From Rhodospirillales bacterium (GTDB lineage: Bacteria; Pseudomonadota; Alphaproteobacteria; Rhodospirillales; Magnetovibrionaceae): DNA of 64,000 bases. Numbering within the stretch: the first letter of the stretch is position 1; every line of letters begins with the position of its first letter. The translations under genes and the position numbers were made by a program. The DNA is taken from assembly GCA_024653965.1 (NCBI GenBank), contig JANLGW010000014.1, positions 1 through 64,000 on the forward strand, in the 5' to 3' direction. Below the pieces are notes generated by a model. That model was not told the DNA's origin. It made no database searches and saw nothing but the letters and a program-made list of their open reading frames with translations. Of this stretch, positions 5,882-15,085 are shown one piece after another.

Positions 5882-7297
5882 TTAATTTCCGAAACGGGAG
5901 TGCAGCGCCGCAAAAATAGCGCGCAGGCCCATGGCTTCGCCACCTTCGGGACGGCCCGGCTGGCTCACAACATTCCACGCCATCAAATCCACATGCGCCC
6001 AGGGGATGTCTTTGCCGACAAACGCTTCCAAAAACAGCGCCGCCGTGATCGCACCACCATAAGCGCTGTCGGTATCGTTTTTCAGATCCGCCACCTTGCT
6101 TTTGATCTGTTTTTTATAGGGCTGCCACAGCGGCAAGCGCCATAAAGGATCGCAGGTGCGGCCACTGGCGGCCAAGATTTCCGCCGCCAGGGCTTCGTCG
6201 TTGCAAAACAGCGCCGGAACTTCCGTGCCCAGGGCCACCCTGGCCGCGCCCGTCAGGGTGGCAAAATCGAACACCACATCGGGACGGTCTTCACTGGCGA
6301 GCGCCAAGGCATCGGCCAAAATCACCCGGCCTTCGGCGTCGGTATTGCCGATTTCCACACTCAAACCCAAGCGCGTCGCCACCACGTCCAAGGGGCGCAT
6401 GGCGGTGGCGGAAACGGAATTTTCCACCGCCGCAATCAACACCCGCAGGCGCACATCGAGACCCAGCGCCATGATCATCGACGCCAGGGCCAGCGCATGC
6501 GCCGCACCGCCCATGTCTTTTTTCATCAGTTTCATGTTGGCGGTGGATTTGATGTCGAGCCCACCTGAATCAAAACACACACCCTTGCCCACCAGCGTCA
6601 CCTTGGGCGCGTCTTCGCGGCCCCAGCGCAACTCTACCAGACGCGGCGCACGGCCATCTTCGGCGCCCCGGCCGACGGCATAGATAGCCGGATATCCTTC
6701 GCGGATCAGGTCTACACCGACAATCTCGGCGTAACTGGCGCCGGTCGCCTGGGCCAGATCCTTGGCCGCGCGCGCCAATTCGGCGGGGCCCATGTCCGAG
6801 GCGGGCGTATTGATCAAATCGCGCGCCAAACGGGCCGCCCCATGGGCGGCGCGCACATAGGCGCGATCCGCGCCCACCGGCCAGACCAGTTGGGGTTTAT
6901 CCGTGCCGTTATCCTCCGCATCCGGTTTGCGATAACGATCAAACTCATAATCAGCCAGCGAAAAACCCAGCGCCGCATCGGTGGCCGCGTCATCGCTGGT
7001 CAAATCGACCAGGGCAAAAACGCCGCCCTTGGGCAACTGCCCCTGCAGCGCGGCCCACGCCCACGGCCCGCCCAAACCTTCATCGTCCAACACATAAACC
7101 ACGCGGCTCAACGCGCCGCTTTCCCCCGGCAGCAACAGCGCCCGCCCGCGTTGGCCTTTAAAACCCGCGCCTGCGACCCACGCCTGCGTGCGCGCATCCT
7201 GCCCCGCCAGCCAAACCGCATAAGCGTCCTTGGCCATGGCATGCACGGGAACGGCATCGGGAGTCGGATCAACCAGACAGGCGGACATGGAAAACAT
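5882..7297 (-). CDS. M17 leucyl aminopeptidase family protein
   Basis: A cytosolic dinuclear-metal aminopeptidase that removes N-terminal residues from peptides. The 471-aa product has the PepA N-terminal macro-like domain, then the catalytic domain with all expected ligands: K238 and D243 (VGKGVCFDSGG), D261, and the signature NTDAEGRVILADAL with D320, E322 and R324. The GGLDIK variant and length of about 470 aa are closer to the PepB-like and alphaproteobacterial branch than to E. coli PepA. It is transcribed towards marR, with 127 nt between them. Exact peptide preference is unknown. Confidence 0.9.
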   Translation of the reverse strand: MFSMSACLVDPTPDAVPVHAMAKDAYAVWLAGQDARTQAWVAGAGFKGQRGRALLLPGESGALSRVVYVLDDEGLGGPWAWAALQGQLPKGGVFALVDLTSDDAATDAALGFSLADYEFDRYRKPDAEDNGTDKPQLVWPVGADRAYVRAAHGAARLARDLINTPASDMGPAELARAAKDLAQATGASYAEIVGVDLIREGYPAIYAVGRGAEDGRAPRLVELRWGREDAPKVTLVGKGVCFDSGGLDIKSTANMKLMKKDMGGAAHALALASMIMALGLDVRLRVLIAAVENSVSATAMRPLDVVATRLGLSVEIGNTDAEGRVILADALALASEDRPDVVFDFATLTGAARVALGTEVPALFCNDEALAAEILAASGRTCDPLWRLPLWQPYKKQIKSKVADLKNDTDSAYGGAITAALFLEAFVGKDIPWAHVDLMAWNVVSQPGRPEGGEAMGLRAIFAALHSRFGN

Positions 7298-7407
7298 CCT
7301 TATGGGCTAAGGGGGCGTGCTTCTAATTGTGTGTCTTCAATGTAGTCGCACGATCATGAGACGCAAGGGGCGATACGCCCCCACTCGAATTCTGGCCCCA
7401 TCCAAGT

Positions 7408-8169
7408 TCAGACCCCATCCAACATGCGTTGCCAATCTTTCGCGCACGCGACATACCGCGCGTGTTCGTCCGCCTGCTGCGGGTTGTTTTGGGTGCGCTC
7501 GGCAAAGCTTTCCATCACCGGTGCCTGCTGCGCCGCCAGGGCAAAAATATCGACGTGGGGCAAGCGCGAAACCAGCGTCGAAAAATTGGTGATGATGTGC
7601 CCGCCTTGCGGTTTGAGCGCCATTTTTTCCAAATCCCCGCGCAGGCTGGGCAACGCATCGAGCAGGCGCTCGGCAAACGGGCGCAAGACCAGCGCGTCAG
7701 ATTCCAACTGCGCGCGTTCGGCGGCGAAGTCTTCACGCAGCAAAATCTGATGATCACGATACACCGCTGGGGCGGCGGCGGAAATGTCACAGGCCCAGCC
7801 GGGTTTGGGCAGCAGCAAATCGCTCTGCTCGGCCTCGGCGCGCGCGCCCGAAAACGGCATGGCGCGACAGCGCTGCGGTTTGTCGGCATGCACGGCGCAT
7901 AACCCGTCATCGCCCAACGCCGGGCAGGCCATGCCGGGCGGCACGTAGGAAAATGGCGTCAGGCGCACGGCTGCCCGCTTACGATTTTTCAGGTGTAAGA
8001 CGAAGCCCAAACGGGCCGTCAGATCATAGGACTTGCCGCCGGGGCGCACCGGTGTCCACAGCAAAAACAGCGGAAACCGCGCCGCGTGCGCCAAAGCGTC
8101 GGGGATGGATAACGGCAGCCAGCCGGTGCAACATTTTCCACACGCGGTGCAGCCAAAATGACGCTCCAT
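7408..8169 (-). CDS. YkgJ family cysteine cluster protein
   Basis: A 253-aa protein with the CxxCGxCC metal-cluster signature at residues 7-14 (CTACGKCC) and further cysteines near CPALGDDGLC and CRAMPFSG, the pattern of the YkgJ/UPF0153 family (zinc or Fe-S binding; biochemical role unsettled). It lies 20 nt downstream of the ychJ-like gene, which also carries metal-binding cysteine motifs, so the two are probably cotranscribed. No membrane segment. Function beyond metal binding is not known. Confidence 0.8.
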   Translation of the reverse strand: MERHFGCTACGKCCTGWLPLSIPDALAHAARFPLFLLWTPVRPGGKSYDLTARLGFVLHLKNRKRAAVRLTPFSYVPPGMACPALGDDGLCAVHADKPQRCRAMPFSGARAEAEQSDLLLPKPGWACDISAAAPAVYRDHQILLREDFAAERAQLESDALVLRPFAERLLDALPSLRGDLEKMALKPQGGHIITNFSTLVSRLPHVDIFALAAQQAPVMESFAERTQNNPQQADEHARYVACAKDWQRMLDGV

Positions 8170-8189
8170 CGTGCCCAGCCTTTGCTAAC

Positions 8190-8675
8190 TTAAGCGCCGC
8201 AGCACTTTTTGAATTTTTTGCCCGAACCGCATGGACACGGATCATTGCGCCCAACTTTCACCACCCGCCGGGGTTCCGTGCCGGGGTTAATCTTGCCATC
8301 GACATAGAGCCACACACCATCGTCGCGGCGAAAATCGGCGCGTTCGCGGTGCGCATAAGTCTGGCCGTTTTCTTTGTAGCTCGCGGTAAAGGTGACCGTG
8401 CCGGTATCATCCTGTTGCCCGCCACCCGTGGTTTCGGTGATTTCCAGGCCCACCCATTCGGTGCCTTGCGACTGCGCCTTGGCGGCGGAAGCGTTGTAGG
8501 TGGAACGGATTTCCGGCGCATGGGTATTGGCGACGTGATCAAAATTGCCCATCACGTGCGCGGTGTACCGCGAACGCATCAAGGCTTCTGCGGTGGCTGC
8601 ACGAACGCTACCGTCGAGAATCGGACCGCAGCAGTCTTTAAACGCTTTGCCGGAATTGCAGGGACACGCGGTCAT
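8190..8675 (-). CDS. YchJ family protein with SEC-C motifs at both ends
   Basis: A 161-aa protein with a zinc-binding SEC-C motif at its N-terminus ([14 protein letters not shown]) and another at its C-terminus ([14 protein letters not shown]), flanking an NTF2-like central domain ([20 protein letters not shown]). This is the full YchJ arrangement. The same SEC-C motif occurs at the end of SecA, where it binds zinc and SecB. The ATG at 8675 follows AAAGGTG at good spacing; a TTG two codons earlier is less likely. It precedes the YkgJ gene by 20 nt. Confidence 0.85.
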
Positions 8676-8778
8676 AATCAAGCACCTTTATAAATTTGAA
8701 TGGAAACACTGTGCGGACAATGTAAAGCAGCAACATGATTTGGCAAAGCGCAGAAGCCCCGTTAATAAAACGCAGCCT

Positions 8779-10260
8779 TCAGCGCGCCAACATCCACACC
8801 ATCATCGCGCCGCCCATGACGATGCGATACCAGGCGAAAATCGCAAAACCGTGCCGCGAAACGAAGCTTAAAAACAGCCGCACCACGCTCAAGGCGGTCA
8901 GCAGGGCGACGACAAAACCCGTCGCGATAATTCCCGCATCGTCGAAATTGAGCACATCCCAATTTTTATACAGCGAATAGACGGCTGCGCCGAGCATGGT
9001 CGGGATGGCCAGAAAAAATGAGAACTCCGCCGCCGTCCGGCGTTCGACCCCGACCAGCAGCGCCCCCATGATGGTCGCGCCCGACCGCGAAACGCCGGGA
9101 ATCATCGAGAGGACCTGAAACAGGCCGATCTTCAAAGACAGGCCGCTGGAAAAGTCCTCGATGCGTCGGTAACGCCCCTCGTGGCGCATCCGCTCGATGG
9201 CGAGAATGGCAATGCCGCCCAGCACCAACATCACGGGCACCACCTCGGGCGCGCTTAAAAGGCGCTTGATCAGGGGATAAGCGAGCGCCCCGATCACCAT
9301 CGCCGGAAAAAATGCGATCAGAATATTGCGCACAAACGCACGCTCCACCGGGTCATAGGCAAAGTCCGCCGCCGCCCGCCACAATCGCCGCCAATACAGC
9401 AGACACACAGCCACGATGGCGCCCAATTGAATGACGATCTCGAAGGTCTTGCCCGGCGGCATCGGCACCGCCAGAAAATCGACGGCGAGAATCAGGTGCC
9501 CGGTCGAAGAAATGGGCAGAAACTCGGTCAAGCCTTCGAGCAACCCAAGAAAAACCGCCGCGAAAAACTGGCCCATGCCCATGTCCATACCTTGGCCCGA
9601 TACGGCAGCCCCCGCTGCATCCCCCATTGGCGCGACCGGCATGGCGCTGAAATATTCCGGCAGCTTCACCGCCGCAATGGCGAGCAAGATGAGCACCACC
9701 ACGGCGGTCGTCACCAGCTTGAGGCGCTTTTCGACAAAATCGCGAATCGTCGGCCCGAATTTCCACAGCAGCGCCGCGATCAGGAAAAACCGCATGGCCC
9801 GCGCAATGAAACTAGCGAAGGTAAATTGGAGCAAATCGAAATCGAAAGCGCCGGCGGCGATGGTGATGAGTTTATAAGGAATGGGCGTCGCGCCCTTCAC
9901 GATAATCACCCACACCCCATATTGATCAACCAAGGGTTTAAAGGCGTAGAACTTCTCCGTCAGGTGGAACACGTCCAAAATGGCCATGCCCAGCGTGCCC
10001 ATGAAAAAATAACCGATGGCATACCCCACATAACCGCCCGCCACCGAAGATAGGGTACAGACCATCGCAATGCGGAACCACCGGGTTGGGGCGGCCAAGA
10101 CCATCGGAATCAGCATGATATCGGGGGGAATGGGAAAGATTGAACTTTCGATGAACGAAACCACCGCCAGCCATGCCATCGCATGGCGATGCATCGCTTT
10201 GTCCATCGCCCAGCCATAAAACCGTTGCAGCATGTCGAAACTATATCCCTGTTGGATCAA
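8779..10260 (-). CDS. DedA/YqaA-like protein fused to undecaprenyl-diphosphatase UppP
   Basis: One uninterrupted 493-aa frame joins two membrane enzymes. Residues 1-200 are a DedA-superfamily (YqaA/VTT) domain: E38-S-S-I-F-P-I-P-P-D47, the second re-entrant stretch KGATPIPYKLITIAAGAF (122-139) and R154/R157. Residues 201-230 form a Met/Gly-rich linker. Residues 231-493 are complete UppP/BacA: LLEGLTEFLPISSTGHL with E242, E246 and H255, and PGVSRSGAT at 388-396. UppP removes a phosphate from C55-PP; some DedA proteins are reported to translocate C55-P across the membrane. The fusion could couple recycling and flipping of the lipid carrier. No other uppP is seen here. Its start is divergent from the SbmA-like gene. 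Confidence 0.9.
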   Translation of the reverse strand: MIQQGYSFDMLQRFYGWAMDKAMHRHAMAWLAVVSFIESSIFPIPPDIMLIPMVLAAPTRWFRIAMVCTLSSVAGGYVGYAIGYFFMGTLGMAILDVFHLTEKFYAFKPLVDQYGVWVIIVKGATPIPYKLITIAAGAFDFDLLQFTFASFIARAMRFFLIAALLWKFGPTIRDFVEKRLKLVTTAVVVLILLAIAAVKLPEYFSAMPVAPMGDAAGAAVSGQGMDMGMGQFFAAVFLGLLEGLTEFLPISSTGHLILAVDFLAVPMPPGKTFEIVIQLGAIVAVCLLYWRRLWRAAADFAYDPVERAFVRNILIAFFPAMVIGALAYPLIKRLLSAPEVVPVMLVLGGIAILAIERMRHEGRYRRIEDFSSGLSLKIGLFQVLSMIPGVSRSGATIMGALLVGVERRTAAEFSFFLAIPTMLGAAVYSLYKNWDVLNFDDAGIIATGFVVALLTALSVVRLFLSFVSRHGFAIFAWYRIVMGGAMMVWMLAR

Positions 10261-10507
10261 TAGCGTTCATGTCGAAGCGTTCATGTGACCCTTAGGTTTT
10301 ACCACCCCGGATATCGTCCACACTTTATTCGCCGCACAAATTGCCCGTTACGATGGCGCGTAAGCTATCAAGAGTTCAGGGGGTGGCGCAAGGCCCGCCA
10401 TGACAAAGTCGGCAACAAACTGCCAAATCCATTGGCAGCGGCGGCGAGAACATGTTTAATCACAAGATGGAGCGAATCTTAAACCATGAACCTATCGGGG
10501 GCGGTGA

Positions 10508-12334
10508 ATGAGGTCTGAAATAAAGAACGGACCAAAGTTCCATAAATTTGTCCGCAAAACGCGAGACTGGCCCGAGTTCTTTCGTCAATTTTTCCGCCTA
10601 GCGACCCCCTTCTGGAAAGGCGAAACCCGGTGGACCGCCTACGGGTTAACGGCAGGGCTTATCGTTTTGACCATCGCCCAAGTCGTCATTCCCGTCGCCA
10701 TTAATTTTTGGAGCGAAGGATTTTTTGACGCCCTCGAACAGCGTTCTTGGGATCTGTTCCTCGAACTGACGGGCGTACTGGGGCTGATCATCGCCGCCAA
10801 CGTCGCCATCGTGACGCTGCACTTGCGGGTCAAGCGGCGGCTGCAGGTCAGCTGGCGCACCTGGCTGACCGACCGGGTGGTCGGCGAGTGGATGACGACG
10901 GGCCGCCAGTACGAGGTATCCTCGCTGCCCGGCGAACACGACAATCCCGACGGGCGCATCGCCGAAGACGTGCGCATCGCCACCGAATACGCCATCGACC
11001 TCGCCCACTCCTTGTTTTTTTGCACCCTGCTTTTGATCAGTTTCACCAAAATTTTGTGGTCGCGTTCCGGGCCGCCGGAAATCCGGATCGGCGACATCGA
11101 GTTATGGATTCCCGGCCATCTGGTGTGGATCGCCATTATTTATGCGGCAAGCGGCGCCTTCATCGCGTGGTGGCTAGGCCGACCGCTGGTCGGGGCCGCG
11201 AACCGGCGCCAAATGTGGGAGGCCAACTTTCGTTTCGGCTTGGCCCACGCGCGGGAAAACGCGATGCCCATCGCTTTGCTGCGTGGCGAACCGGATGAAC
11301 GGCGCAACCTGCTCGGCCTGTTCGATGGCGCGGCGGATGCGTGGAACAAGCAAACATACGCCCTGACCCGGTTGTTTGCGTTTACCTCGTTCTGGTCGGT
11401 CGTCAGCCAAGTTTTTCCGGTCATGATCGCCGCCCCCCGCTACATCGCCCATACGATCAGCTTGGGCGTGCTGATGCAAACGGCCCAAGCGTTTCAGCAA
11501 ATGGTGGCGGCGCTGTCATGGCCCATCGACAATCTGGCCAGGGCCGCGGAGTGGCGGGCTTCATCCGAACGCGTGCTCGGGCTGCACGAAGCGCTGAACT
11601 GCATCGTCGAACGCATCCCCCGCGAAAAAGACGCCGCCATCCAAATCCACTTAGGCAGCCGGCCTGCACTCGAATTTTGCCAAGTCGCCATCACCGACCC
11701 GGAGGGCGGACTCCTCATCGAACCCTTCGACCTGGAAATCAAAGCCGGGGAACGGGTGCTGATTTCCGGCGACCATGCCGCCGCGCAGGCCATGTGCAAG
11801 GTCGTGGCCGGATTATGGCCGTGGGGACGGGGCGAGATCATCACGCCCAACGACGACGAAATTTTCTTCCTGCCGCAGCATTCCTATCTGCCCATCGGCC
11901 CCCTAAACGGCGCGGTCTGTTACCCCTCGCCGCCCTTATTTTGCGATTTGGATGAAATCGCCCGATCACTGCGCGCCGTCGGGTTGGAGGCTCTCGTCGA
12001 GCGTAGCGCCGAAAGCGGAAACTGGGCCGATATTCTGACTTTAGAAGAACAACAGCGGGTCGGTTTTGCGCGGCTGCTGCTGCGCCGCCCCCGTTGGGTC
12101 TTTATCCAAGAAGCGGTGGATGTGCTCGACCGCGAGGTACGCGGCGCCATGATGGATTTAATCTTACGGGAGCTTCCCGACTCGACCATCATCACCATCG
12201 GCCATCACCGCGATCTTGCCGCTTACCACAGCCGTAGGGTGGTGCTGTCGCGCACCAACGGCACGGTCACCGTAGAAGAACGCCCAGCAGAAAACGGCAT
12301 CGGGGCAGAGGATAACTCCCCCGCTCTGCTGTAA
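10508..12334 (+). CDS. SbmA/ABCD-type ABC protein with degenerate ATPase domain
   Basis: A 608-aa half-transporter. The N-terminal half (to about residue 340) is an ABC_membrane_2/SbmA-BacA domain with about six helices. The C-terminal half keeps the nucleotide-binding fold but has lost its motifs. Walker A reads SGDHAAAQAM, with Q427 in place of lysine and one residue missing. The signature is LTLEEQQR, with E513 for glycine. Walker B is FIQEAVDVLD, with Q534 for aspartate; E535 and H566 remain. The frame is intact throughout. E. coli SbmA has no ATPase domain and is proton-driven, so this may be a non-hydrolysing relative. Substrate unknown. It is divergent from the DedA-UppP gene across 247 nt. 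Confidence 0.85.
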   Translation: MRSEIKNGPKFHKFVRKTRDWPEFFRQFFRLATPFWKGETRWTAYGLTAGLIVLTIAQVVIPVAINFWSEGFFDALEQRSWDLFLELTGVLGLIIAANVAIVTLHLRVKRRLQVSWRTWLTDRVVGEWMTTGRQYEVSSLPGEHDNPDGRIAEDVRIATEYAIDLAHSLFFCTLLLISFTKILWSRSGPPEIRIGDIELWIPGHLVWIAIIYAASGAFIAWWLGRPLVGAANRRQMWEANFRFGLAHARENAMPIALLRGEPDERRNLLGLFDGAADAWNKQTYALTRLFAFTSFWSVVSQVFPVMIAAPRYIAHTISLGVLMQTAQAFQQMVAALSWPIDNLARAAEWRASSERVLGLHEALNCIVERIPREKDAAIQIHLGSRPALEFCQVAITDPEGGLLIEPFDLEIKAGERVLISGDHAAAQAMCKVVAGLWPWGRGEIITPNDDEIFFLPQHSYLPIGPLNGAVCYPSPPLFCDLDEIARSLRAVGLEALVERSAESGNWADILTLEEQQRVGFARLLLRRPRWVFIQEAVDVLDREVRGAMMDLILRELPDSTIITIGHHRDLAAYHSRRVVLSRTNGTVTVEERPAENGIGAEDNSPALL

Positions 12335-12388
12335 GCGTTGCTTTAAAAGGGAAGGGCAAAAAGAGTGGGGTAGAGAGTGGGATTGCTC

Positions 12389-12454
12389 GGGGCTCTGCCC
12401 CTCGTCCCTTCGGGACCGGTGCTGTGCACCGTCGCAAAACGCCCTGCGCTTTGC
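12389..12454. repeat. Array of four consecutive tri-loop hairpins
   Basis: Four adjacent inverted repeats, each with a 3-nt loop. H1 is GGGGC-TCT-GCCCC (12389-12401). H2 is GTCCC-TTC-GGGAC (12404-12416). H3 is CGGTGC-TGT-GCACCG (12417-12431). H4 is a nine-position stem with one mismatch around CCT (12434-12454). It lies between the ABC gene stop and the tRNA-Ser terminator. Short hairpins of the GGGGCTCTGCCCC type are common between genes in this bacterial group; a tight series of four is unusual. It might attenuate transcription or protect the mRNA 3' end. Confidence 0.7.
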
Positions 12455-12491
12455 CGAACCAAGGGTCCGTTCACCACACCCCATTCCCCAT

Positions 12492-12523
12492 AAACAAAGG
12501 CCCCACAAGGGGGCCTTTGTTTA
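12492..12523. terminator. Terminator downstream of tRNA-Ser
   Basis: A perfect stem of about 12 bp (AAACAAAGGCCC / GGGCCTTTGTTT) with a short loop, immediately 3' of tRNA-Ser on the reverse strand. The symmetric A/T flanks make it usable from both sides, including the upstream ABC gene. Confidence 0.8.
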
Positions 12524-12613
12524 TGGCGGAGAGAGTGGGATTCGAACCCACGTTAGGATTTCGCCTAAACACGCTTTCCAAGCGTGCGCCTTCAGCCACT
12601 CGGCCACCTCTCC
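12524..12613 (-). tRNA. tRNA-Ser (anticodon GGA)
   Basis: A 90-nt cloverleaf on the reverse strand. The acceptor stem GGAGAGG pairs with TCTCTCC (one G-U), then G and an encoded CCA. The anticodon arm CACGC/GCGTG holds loop TTGGAAA with anticodon GGA. A long serine-type variable arm (TTAGGCGAAATCCTAA) and a GTTCGAATC T-loop follow. It decodes UCC/UCU. Confidence 0.96.
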
Positions 12614-12753: not shown

Positions 12754-13302
12754 ATGAACGATTCGATCAAACGATTGCTGTTTATCCTCGGTATTGCGCT
12801 CGCGGGCGCGGCTTTTGTGGCGACGGGCACGGAAATCGTCGCTTCGGCCTTAAATCCCGACTTAGGCCGCCTACCCAGCGCGGCGGAACTGTGGCGCGCC
12901 GTTTCGCCCGCAACTTTTGAGGCGGCCTTGGCGCAATGGCCGATGATCGTCTCAACCGTCTTAACTCTGCCCGCGTGGCTGCTGTTGGGCGCGCCGGGCA
13001 TCACTTTCATCATCATCGGCCACGAACGCGACGAAGACGCGGCGCCGGAAATCGAACAATCCTTATACTTGTTCGACGAACTGACGCGGCGTGCGCGCGA
13101 AGACGGTTTTGCCGACATTGATGATTTCAGCCACAGCACCGCCATGGACTTCCACCCCGCCGACCCGCAATTTATCCGCGATAGCGTCGCCGACGACCTG
13201 ATCGACGGTCACGACTATTTGCTCGATCCTCATAAAGCGGAAGCGGCGGACGGCGAAGCGCCACAGGCAGACGACAAAACGGTCAGTCGTCGCCCATCTT
13301 AA
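12754..13302 (+). CDS. Hypothetical two-helix membrane protein
   Basis: A 182-aa protein I do not recognise as a named family. Two hydrophobic helices are visible at about residues 8-30 and 65-89, separated by a loop of about 34 residues; the remaining 90 residues are acidic and probably cytosolic ([33 protein letters not shown]). The ATG sits after a weak purine stretch. It is convergent with lepA and the two coding regions overlap by 20 bp at their 3' ends. Codon use matches its neighbours, so it is likely a native gene. Function unknown. Confidence 0.65.
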
Positions 13303-15085
13303 GCGCGTTGATGAAGGCGCTTTGCGGGATTTCCACCTTGCCGAACTGGCGCATCTTCTTTTTGCCCTTTTTCTGCTTTTCCAGCAGCTTTTTCTTGCGC
13401 GTGATGTCGCCGCCGTAACATTTGGCGGTCACGTCTTTGCGCATGGCAGAAATGGTTTCACGCGCCACCACCTTGCCGCCGATGGCGGCCTGGATGGGAA
13501 TCTTGAACAACTGGCGCGGGATCAGGTCTTTTAGGCGTTCACACACCTGGCGGCCCCGGTTTTCCGATTGCGAACGGTGGCAGACAAACGCCAACGCATC
13601 CACCGGCTCGTTGTTGACCAGAATGGAAATCTTCACCAGATCGTTTTCGCTGTAACCATCCATTTCGTAATCGAAGCTGGCGTAACCGCGCGAAATGGAT
13701 TTGAGGCGGTCGTAAAAATCGAACACCACTTCGTTGAGCGGCAGGCGGTACACCACCATGGCGCGGTTGCCGACATACGTCAGTTCCACCTGTTCGCCAC
13801 GTCGGTCGGTACACAGGCCCAGCACCGAGCCCAGATATTCATCGGGCACCAAGATGGTGGCTTTGATCCACGGTTCTTCGATGGCCTTGATCTGGGTCGG
13901 ATCGGGCATATCGGCGGGATTGTGCAGATCAACCTGCCGCCCATCGATCAATTGAAGTTTATAAGCGACGCTGGGCGCGGTGGTGATCAGGTCGAGATCG
14001 AACTCGCGCTCTAAACGTTCCTGGATGATTTCCAGATGCAGCAGGCCTAAGAAACCGCAGCGAAAACCCTGGCCCAAAGCGGCCGAGGTTTCCGGATCGA
14101 ACTCAAAACTGGCGTCGTTGAGGCGCAGTTTGCCCATGGAATCGCGCAAATCGTCATAATCGGCGGCATCGACGGGAAATAACGAGCAAAACACCACCGG
14201 CACGCTCGGCTTAAAACCGGGCAGCGGTTCCGTGGCAGGGTTTTTATCGTCGGTAATGGTATCGCCGACGTTGGTATCGGCGACGGTTTTGATCGACGCG
14301 GTGAAATAACCCATCTCACCGGGGCCAAGTTCATCGAGCCTTGCGATCTTGGGCGTGAAGATGCCGACCTGCTCGACCTGATGGGCGCTGCCGGCGGCCA
14401 TCATGCGAACCTTCTGGCCGCGCTTCAAAACGCCATCGACCACGCGCACCAAAATCATCACACCCAGATACGAATCGTACCAGCTATCGACCAGCAGCGC
14501 TTTTAAGGGCGCGTTGCGATCCCCCTTGGGCGCGGGCAGGCGATGCACGATGGCTTCCAAGGTCTCGGTGATGCCGATGCCGGACTTGGCCGAAACCAAT
14601 AAGGCCTCCGAGGCATCGAGGCCGATCACGTCTTCAATTTGTGCGCGCACCTGTTCCGGCTCGGCGGCGGGCAGGTCGATCTTGTTCAGGACCGGGATGA
14701 TCTCCAGATCGTTGCCGAGCGCCAAATAAACGTTGGCGAGCGTCTGTGCCTCCACGCCTTGGGATGCGTCCACCACCAGCAATGCGCCTTCGCACGCGGC
14801 CAAGGAGCGCGACACTTCGTAGGCAAAATCGACATGGCCGGGGGTATCCATCAGATTGATCTGATAGGTCTCGCCGTTTTTGGCTTTGTACATCAGGCGC
14901 ACGGTCTGGGCTTTGATGGTGATGCCGCGTTCACGCTCGATATCCATGGAATCGAGCACCTGCTCGGACATCTCGCGGTCGGTCAGGCCGCCGCAATGCT
15001 GAATCAATCGATCCGCCAGCGTCGACTTGCCATGGTCGATGTGCGCGATGATGGAAAAATTGCGAATGTGTGAAAGCTCGGTCAT
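13283..15085 (-). CDS. lepA: Elongation factor 4 (back-translocating GTPase LepA)
   Basis: LepA is a ribosome-associated GTPase acting in translation and 30S biogenesis. The 600-aa product has the family's usual length. The G1 motif AHIDHGKST (about residues 14-22), DTPGHVDF (G3) and NKIDLP (G4) are intact. EF-G-like domains II, III and V follow, then the LepA-specific C-terminal domain with [20 protein letters not shown]. Its 3' end overlaps the convergent hypothetical membrane gene by 20 bp. It is the first gene of its strand after the accessory patch at 15.2-17.1 kb. Confidence 0.97.

Follow-up and report, generated by a model that had tools for sequence, protein, structure and literature searches.

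A DedA domain and an UppP phosphatase in one open frame

The window (the whole 64,000-nucleotide stretch of Rhodospirillales DNA that was analyzed) contains a stop-free open frame of 493 codons on its minus strand (8779..10260), which begins with TTG and is read from 10260 down to 8779. Since standalone relatives align from residues 9-10, the ATG at codon 10 (position 10233) is the likelier start, giving a probable coding sequence at 8779-10233 (minus strand) for a protein of 484 aa; residue numbers here follow the whole frame. The product consists of a DedA (VTT) half of the YqaA/PIPPD type (residues 10-200; 9661..10233, minus strand), a linker of 28 residues that lacks Lys and Arg (residues 201-228; 9577..9660, minus strand), and an UppP/BacA half (residues 229-493; 8782..9576, minus strand). 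The Pfam VTT profile (PF09335) matches residues 44-164 with 37.3 bits against a curated cut-off of 33.9, the BacA profile (PF02673) matches residues 235-484 with 256.5 bits against 33.4, and NCBIfam model NF001389 identifies the C-terminal half as an undecaprenyl-diphosphate phosphatase (346.6, cut-off 262); the E-values exclude a chance match to these domains. The initial annotation, made from the sequence alone, had described, without giving the strand, a DedA domain and UppP in a single frame, with both halves complete, and the comparison with relatives bears this out. Standalone DedA relatives (190-195 aa) stop where the linker starts and standalone UppP relatives start at approximately residue 229, indicating that two complete domains are joined by 28 residues. 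The residues highlighted in that annotation are also where it placed them: E38, PIPPD (43-47), KGATPIP (122-128) and R154 in the DedA half, and E242, E246, H255 and PGVSRSGAT (388-396) in the UppP half. The one stop-free frame rules out reading the contig as a frameshift or as two genes, and codon-position GC is coding-like across the two domains, with third-position values of 0.69-0.79, and the linker has 0.69. A search for the source of the linker gave no convincing match, and a promoter scan upstream of the fusion found nothing.

The border between the domains contains three in-frame ATG codons (residues 225, 227 and 229; 9574..9588, minus strand), which, judging from the sequence, are candidate internal starts for UppP alone. 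That of residue 227 has AAGG ~7 nt upstream, and standalone UppP proteins begin at the matching place. The uppP gene might therefore be expressed mainly from an internal start, yielding a separate UppP besides the fusion, with the dedA frame simply over-running into it. There is no stop between the halves, however, so every full read of dedA would yield the fusion as well, and we consider it improbable that internal initiation is the main route.

The UppP half keeps the (E/Q)xxxE, SS..H and PGxSRSGxT motifs, and its E242, E246, S252, H255 and R392 align with the catalytic residues E17, E21, S27, H30 and R174 of Escherichia coli BacA (PMC5861054). By sequence, it matches solved BacA/UppP structures with E = 4e-53. 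In an AlphaFold2 model (14 sequences, mean pLDDT 75.8, pTM 0.52), both halves are folded and the linker is disordered, most of it being predicted with a pLDDT under 50; because the model was built only from the window sequence together with sequences of the loci compared, the relative placement of the halves in this model is not reliable. The predicted C-terminal half adopts an interdigitated inverted-repeat fold that superposes on E. coli BacA (PDB 5OON) with a Z score of 35.4 and 2.5 Å over 262 residues. It thus resembles E. coli BacA/UppP (PDB 5OON, 6CB2) in fold and in its catalytic Glu pair, Ser, His and Arg, but the E. coli enzyme is a standalone protein, whereas here a DedA domain and linker precede it. 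That the UppP half acts as a C55-PP phosphatase is plausible from these features.

The DedA half is modeled with helix-turn-helix re-entrant pairs at 18-31/38-47 and 99-114/120-129 (model numbering), and E38/D47 and K122/K130 (model residues 29, 38, 113 and 121) are positioned at or beside the re-entrant turns; comparison of this predicted half with the PDB gave no clear match to a solved DedA fold. A YqaA relative is predicted to have a cytoplasmic N-terminus and an extracellular C-terminus (PMC8679861), and both termini of E. coli BacA are periplasmic (PMC5852022, PMC5861054). A basic segment, RDFVEKRLK, precedes the last DedA helix and the linker without Lys or Arg follows it, making a periplasmic linker the natural reading. 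From its sequence, therefore, the linker is probably periplasmic, which would fit the periplasmic N-terminus of BacA.

The genomic island between pepA and tRNA-Ser

Comparison with the corresponding loci of relatives (L106-L110) places the fusion gene within an inserted segment with approximate ends at 7340..12510. On its far side is conserved pepA, encoding an M17 aminopeptidase (5882..7297, minus strand), and on its near side are tRNA-Ser(GGA) (12524..12613, minus strand), the 3' end of which points toward the segment, and lepA (13283..15085, minus strand), beside which the tRNA gene is conserved in relatives. LepA is 84-92% identical within the host's family (f1), indicating that the contig belongs to this genome. 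Besides the fusion, the segment encodes a CxxCxxCC (YkgJ-like) protein (7408..8169, minus strand; PF03692), a YchJ/SEC-C protein (8190..8681, minus strand; PF17775, PF02810) and, divergent from the fusion, an SbmA/BacA-like ABC transporter (10508..12334, plus strand; PF06472, PF05992), which is unrelated to UppP though both are named BacA. The transporter beside the fusion could concern peptide uptake or resistance; we looked for a link between the fusion and defence and found none. The tRNA-Ser and pepA genes are direct neighbours in two genomes of the family (G011 and G015), are ~5 kb apart in the window, and in a third genome (G005) are separated by ~6.5 kb of different DNA; in two more (G007 and G002), no pepA lies within the stretch read near tRNA-Ser. 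In this family, the interval has the look of a hot spot for insertions, being empty in two genomes and variously filled elsewhere. No integrase was seen in the 5-kb inserted segment of the window.

Several comparisons point to a source outside the family. Nothing in the tRNA-Ser-pepA interval of two relatives (L107/L108) matches the YchJ/SEC-C and CxxCxxCC proteins, and in 17 same-family genomes there was no match to the ABC transporter at E<=1e-60 or to the group to which the UppP half belongs (here called UppP-2) at E<=1e-75. The best relative of the transporter (58%) is found in G052, a genome of family f15, and the UppP half pairs with that same genome, on a long branch (SH-aLRT 96). Standalone proteins of 190-193 aa from Magnetococcia and from f22, another family of the order, share 69-82% identity with the DedA half, which branches beside Magnetococcia (SH-aLRT 90) and well away from the DedA native to the host's family. 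The two halves therefore differ in their nearest kin: those of the DedA half are in Magnetococcia, and those of the UppP half in a different family of the order. A foreign origin of the island is, by these sequence comparisons, well supported. As a separate observation, the occurrence of a DedA clade ~80% identical to the fusion's half in both Magnetococcia and one family of the order suggests transfer between classes.

Kin in a different class for one half and a different family for the other, in an assembly fragmented into 153 contigs, could also result from an assembly chimera in which genes of different organisms were joined. Several observations argue against such a join: it is in frame, through a linker of coding composition; it lies >9 kb from the contig start, flanked on either side by synteny that is conserved in the family; the adjoining ABC transporter is also foreign to the family, so that foreignness characterizes the island as a whole; and the genome otherwise lacks a whole DedA of the fusion's type. 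Together, these observations leave a chimera only a slim chance.

Loss of the native dedA and distribution of the fusion

Relatives keep a tRNA-Leu(CAA)-dedA arrangement that is followed in many of them by dsbB and/or coq7. In the genome containing the fusion, tRNA-Leu (C59:28384-28470) is followed by a remnant of dedA and then by dsbB and coq7. The remnant comprises the last ~28 codons of the gene (C59:28229-28312; L151 8230-8313), with 39% identity to residues 165-192 of the DedA protein of a relative (G009; E = 0.002 in a 10-kb stretch). No other DedA of the fusion's type was found in this genome, which is 99.6% complete, and with the native gene cut to ~28 codons, the only DedA of YqaA/PIPPD type in the genome is the one in the fusion. 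The dedA loss at C59 may be a misassembly. Because the native gene is deleted to a 3' remnant, it is plausible that the DedA half functionally replaces it. The initial annotation had anticipated neither this deletion nor the location of the fusion on an island. The DedA of the tRNA-Leu-dedA-dsbB-coq7 locus is likewise of the PIPPD / TPxPYK family (in the host's family, 43-51% identity), but it is standalone and vertically inherited, whereas the DedA half of the fusion was acquired and has its nearest kin in Magnetococcia.

Examination of the genome for further uppP and dedA genes, which the initial annotation had proposed, found, in addition to this 3' remnant, a native UppP, which is a distant paralogue with 31% identity (C36:1438-2193), and another, COG0586-like DedA. 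With these two proteins present, lipid-carrier recycling could proceed without the fusion.

No second DedA-UppP fusion was found in ~1,050 distinct genomes, drawn from overlapping sets of relatives (60 genomes), the order (317), the class (385), the phylum (398) and Magnetococcia (48); for the class and the phylum the limits were strict (1e-100 and 1e-66), and a very divergent fusion could be missed at them. Plasmids likewise contained no such fusion, a scan of a set of genome contigs found one standalone DedA, and viral contigs contained standalone genes only. Several IMG/VR contigs have near-identical uppP genes at their ends or close to them, which may be either carried genes or host DNA beside proviruses. 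One match that crossed the domain border (residues 9-298, in G167) was rejected as a fusion because it runs through four stops. Within the genomes searched, the fusion is thus a lone, non-conserved case (1 of ~1,050), an outcome that the initial annotation had itself named as counting against its proposal. Linkage of unfused dedA and uppP-2 was seen in one genus only (g27; G039 and G059), where the two genes are neighbours in convergent rather than tandem orientation. Also in one genus, a uppP-2 gene shares 4 bases with the end of an MMPL-family gene (L069), and this uppP-2 lies convergent to a YqaA-type dedA. In other genomes, uppP-2 has no shared operon context, and its neighbours vary (an MMPL protein, a PAS kinase, a glycosyl transferase family member).

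The DedA subfamily and possible functions of the fusion

Annotated plasmid relatives of the DedA half (40-42% identity) are named "YqaA family protein". E38, D47, K130 and R154 are invariant in 49/49 aligned PIPPD-type proteins, K122 is present in all 21 members of the near clade (21/21), and the glycine at G137 is shared by every DedA protein aligned. The acidic pair of E. coli YghB (Glu39 and Asp51) has its counterpart in E38 and D47. YghB residues Arg130 and Arg136 are absent, with G123 and Y129 in those columns; K122 and K130 are one column away from the arginine positions, in a loop where the alignment is uncertain by a residue. Neither lysine occurs in E. coli YqaA or in the YqaA-like gene on contig C78 of the fusion's own genome. 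In the main text of Todor et al. (PMC10127716), COG1238/YqaA DedA proteins are described as common in Proteobacteria and essential in some of them, are placed outside the C55-P flippases and thought unlikely to flip C55-P, and are proposed to carry other lipids. They are also described there as having almost no basic residues at the second re-entrant tip; this holds for E. coli YqaA, in which that tip has none, but it fits the PIPPD branch poorly, given its invariant K130 and frequent K122. One could imagine that the PIPPD/TPxPYK branch of YqaA-type DedA proteins is a C55-P (or polyprenyl-phosphate) translocase in which the lysines replace the two arginines, and that the fusion would hand C55-P directly from phosphatase to flippase, but we regard this specific proposal as rather unlikely.

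Fusions of a translocase and a phosphatase are already known. An InterPro survey lists DUF368-BacA, DUF368-PAP2 and PAP2-DUF368 proteins and many DedA-PAP2 proteins (Sit et al. 2022, PMC9876793, main text), and Todor et al. (PMC10127716, main text) describe PAP2 fusions in COG0586 and report that 99% of COG1238 members are single-domain proteins. Like the fusion described here, DUF368-BacA proteins combine a C55-P translocase domain with a C55-PP phosphatase of the BacA family, but their translocase is DUF368 (PopT type) and not DedA; no DUF368 protein was found in the fusion's own genome. DedA-PAP2 proteins also share with it a DedA domain and a C55-PP phosphatase, but there the phosphatase is PAP2 and the DedA belongs to the COG0586 group of C55-P flippases (PMC10127716), whereas here BacA/UppP accompanies a DedA of YqaA/PIPPD type. 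A DedA-BacA fusion is not named in the main texts of PMC9876793 and PMC10127716. The suggestion in the initial annotation that the architecture is undescribed therefore survives in part: the kind is published, and the pairing of BacA with a YqaA-type DedA appears to be new.

These features would be consistent with a bifunctional inner-membrane protein whose single chain performs two successive steps in the recycling of the lipid carrier. Its UppP half would remove phosphate from C55-PP at the periplasmic face, and the tethered DedA half would then take up the C55-P so produced (or a similar phospho-lipid) and return it to the cytoplasmic leaflet. E38/D47 would serve in proton coupling, and K122/K130, at the tip of the second re-entrant pair, would engage the phosphate. 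The gene would have arrived on the tRNA-Ser island, and its DedA half would now stand in for the deleted native dedA. Complete domains and motifs, a compatible topology, the loss of dedA and the known fusions of other families count in favor of this reading; its occurrence in a lone genome, the COG1238 classification, the absent COG0586 arginines, the presence of both a native UppP and a COG0586-like DedA, the dsbB-coq7 context and the convergent dedA/uppP-2 linkage count against it. We hold the view of an island-borne phosphatase and translocase that replaces the native dedA only tentatively.

Close to it in weight is the possibility that the fusion is real and translated but that its halves work independently, the DedA half performing a YqaA-type task on another lipid in place of the native dedA, and a spare UppP having been joined to it accidentally by rearrangement within the island. 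In favor of this, the fusion occurs once among ~1,050 genomes, the halves have different nearest kin, the native dedA context is dsbB-coq7 and not uppP, a native UppP is present, and other lipids have been proposed for COG1238 proteins (PMC10127716, main text). Against independent halves stand the consecutive steps of one pathway that UppP and some DedA proteins serve, the fitting linker topology and clean frame, and the intact catalytic residues of the UppP half despite its long branch. In view of the single genome, and of a DedA half of a type classed as unlikely to flip C55-P in the main text of PMC10127716, "direct genetic support" for C55-P flipping, as the initial annotation put it, was too strong; the fusion is suggestive, and not direct, evidence of C55-P flipping by its DedA half.

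A natural fusion to UppP in a genome that has lost the host copy provides a concrete construct with which to ask whether C55-P is a substrate of YqaA-type DedA proteins, and DedA-BacA adds a pairing beside the known DUF368-BacA and DedA-PAP2 fusions. The locus also suggests that island-borne copies may displace a conserved envelope gene. At the conserved locus of that gene, YqaA-type dedA repeatedly adjoins dsbB and coq7, both of which are tied to ubiquinone, an arrangement that might point to a role for this DedA branch connected with quinones or polyprenyls.
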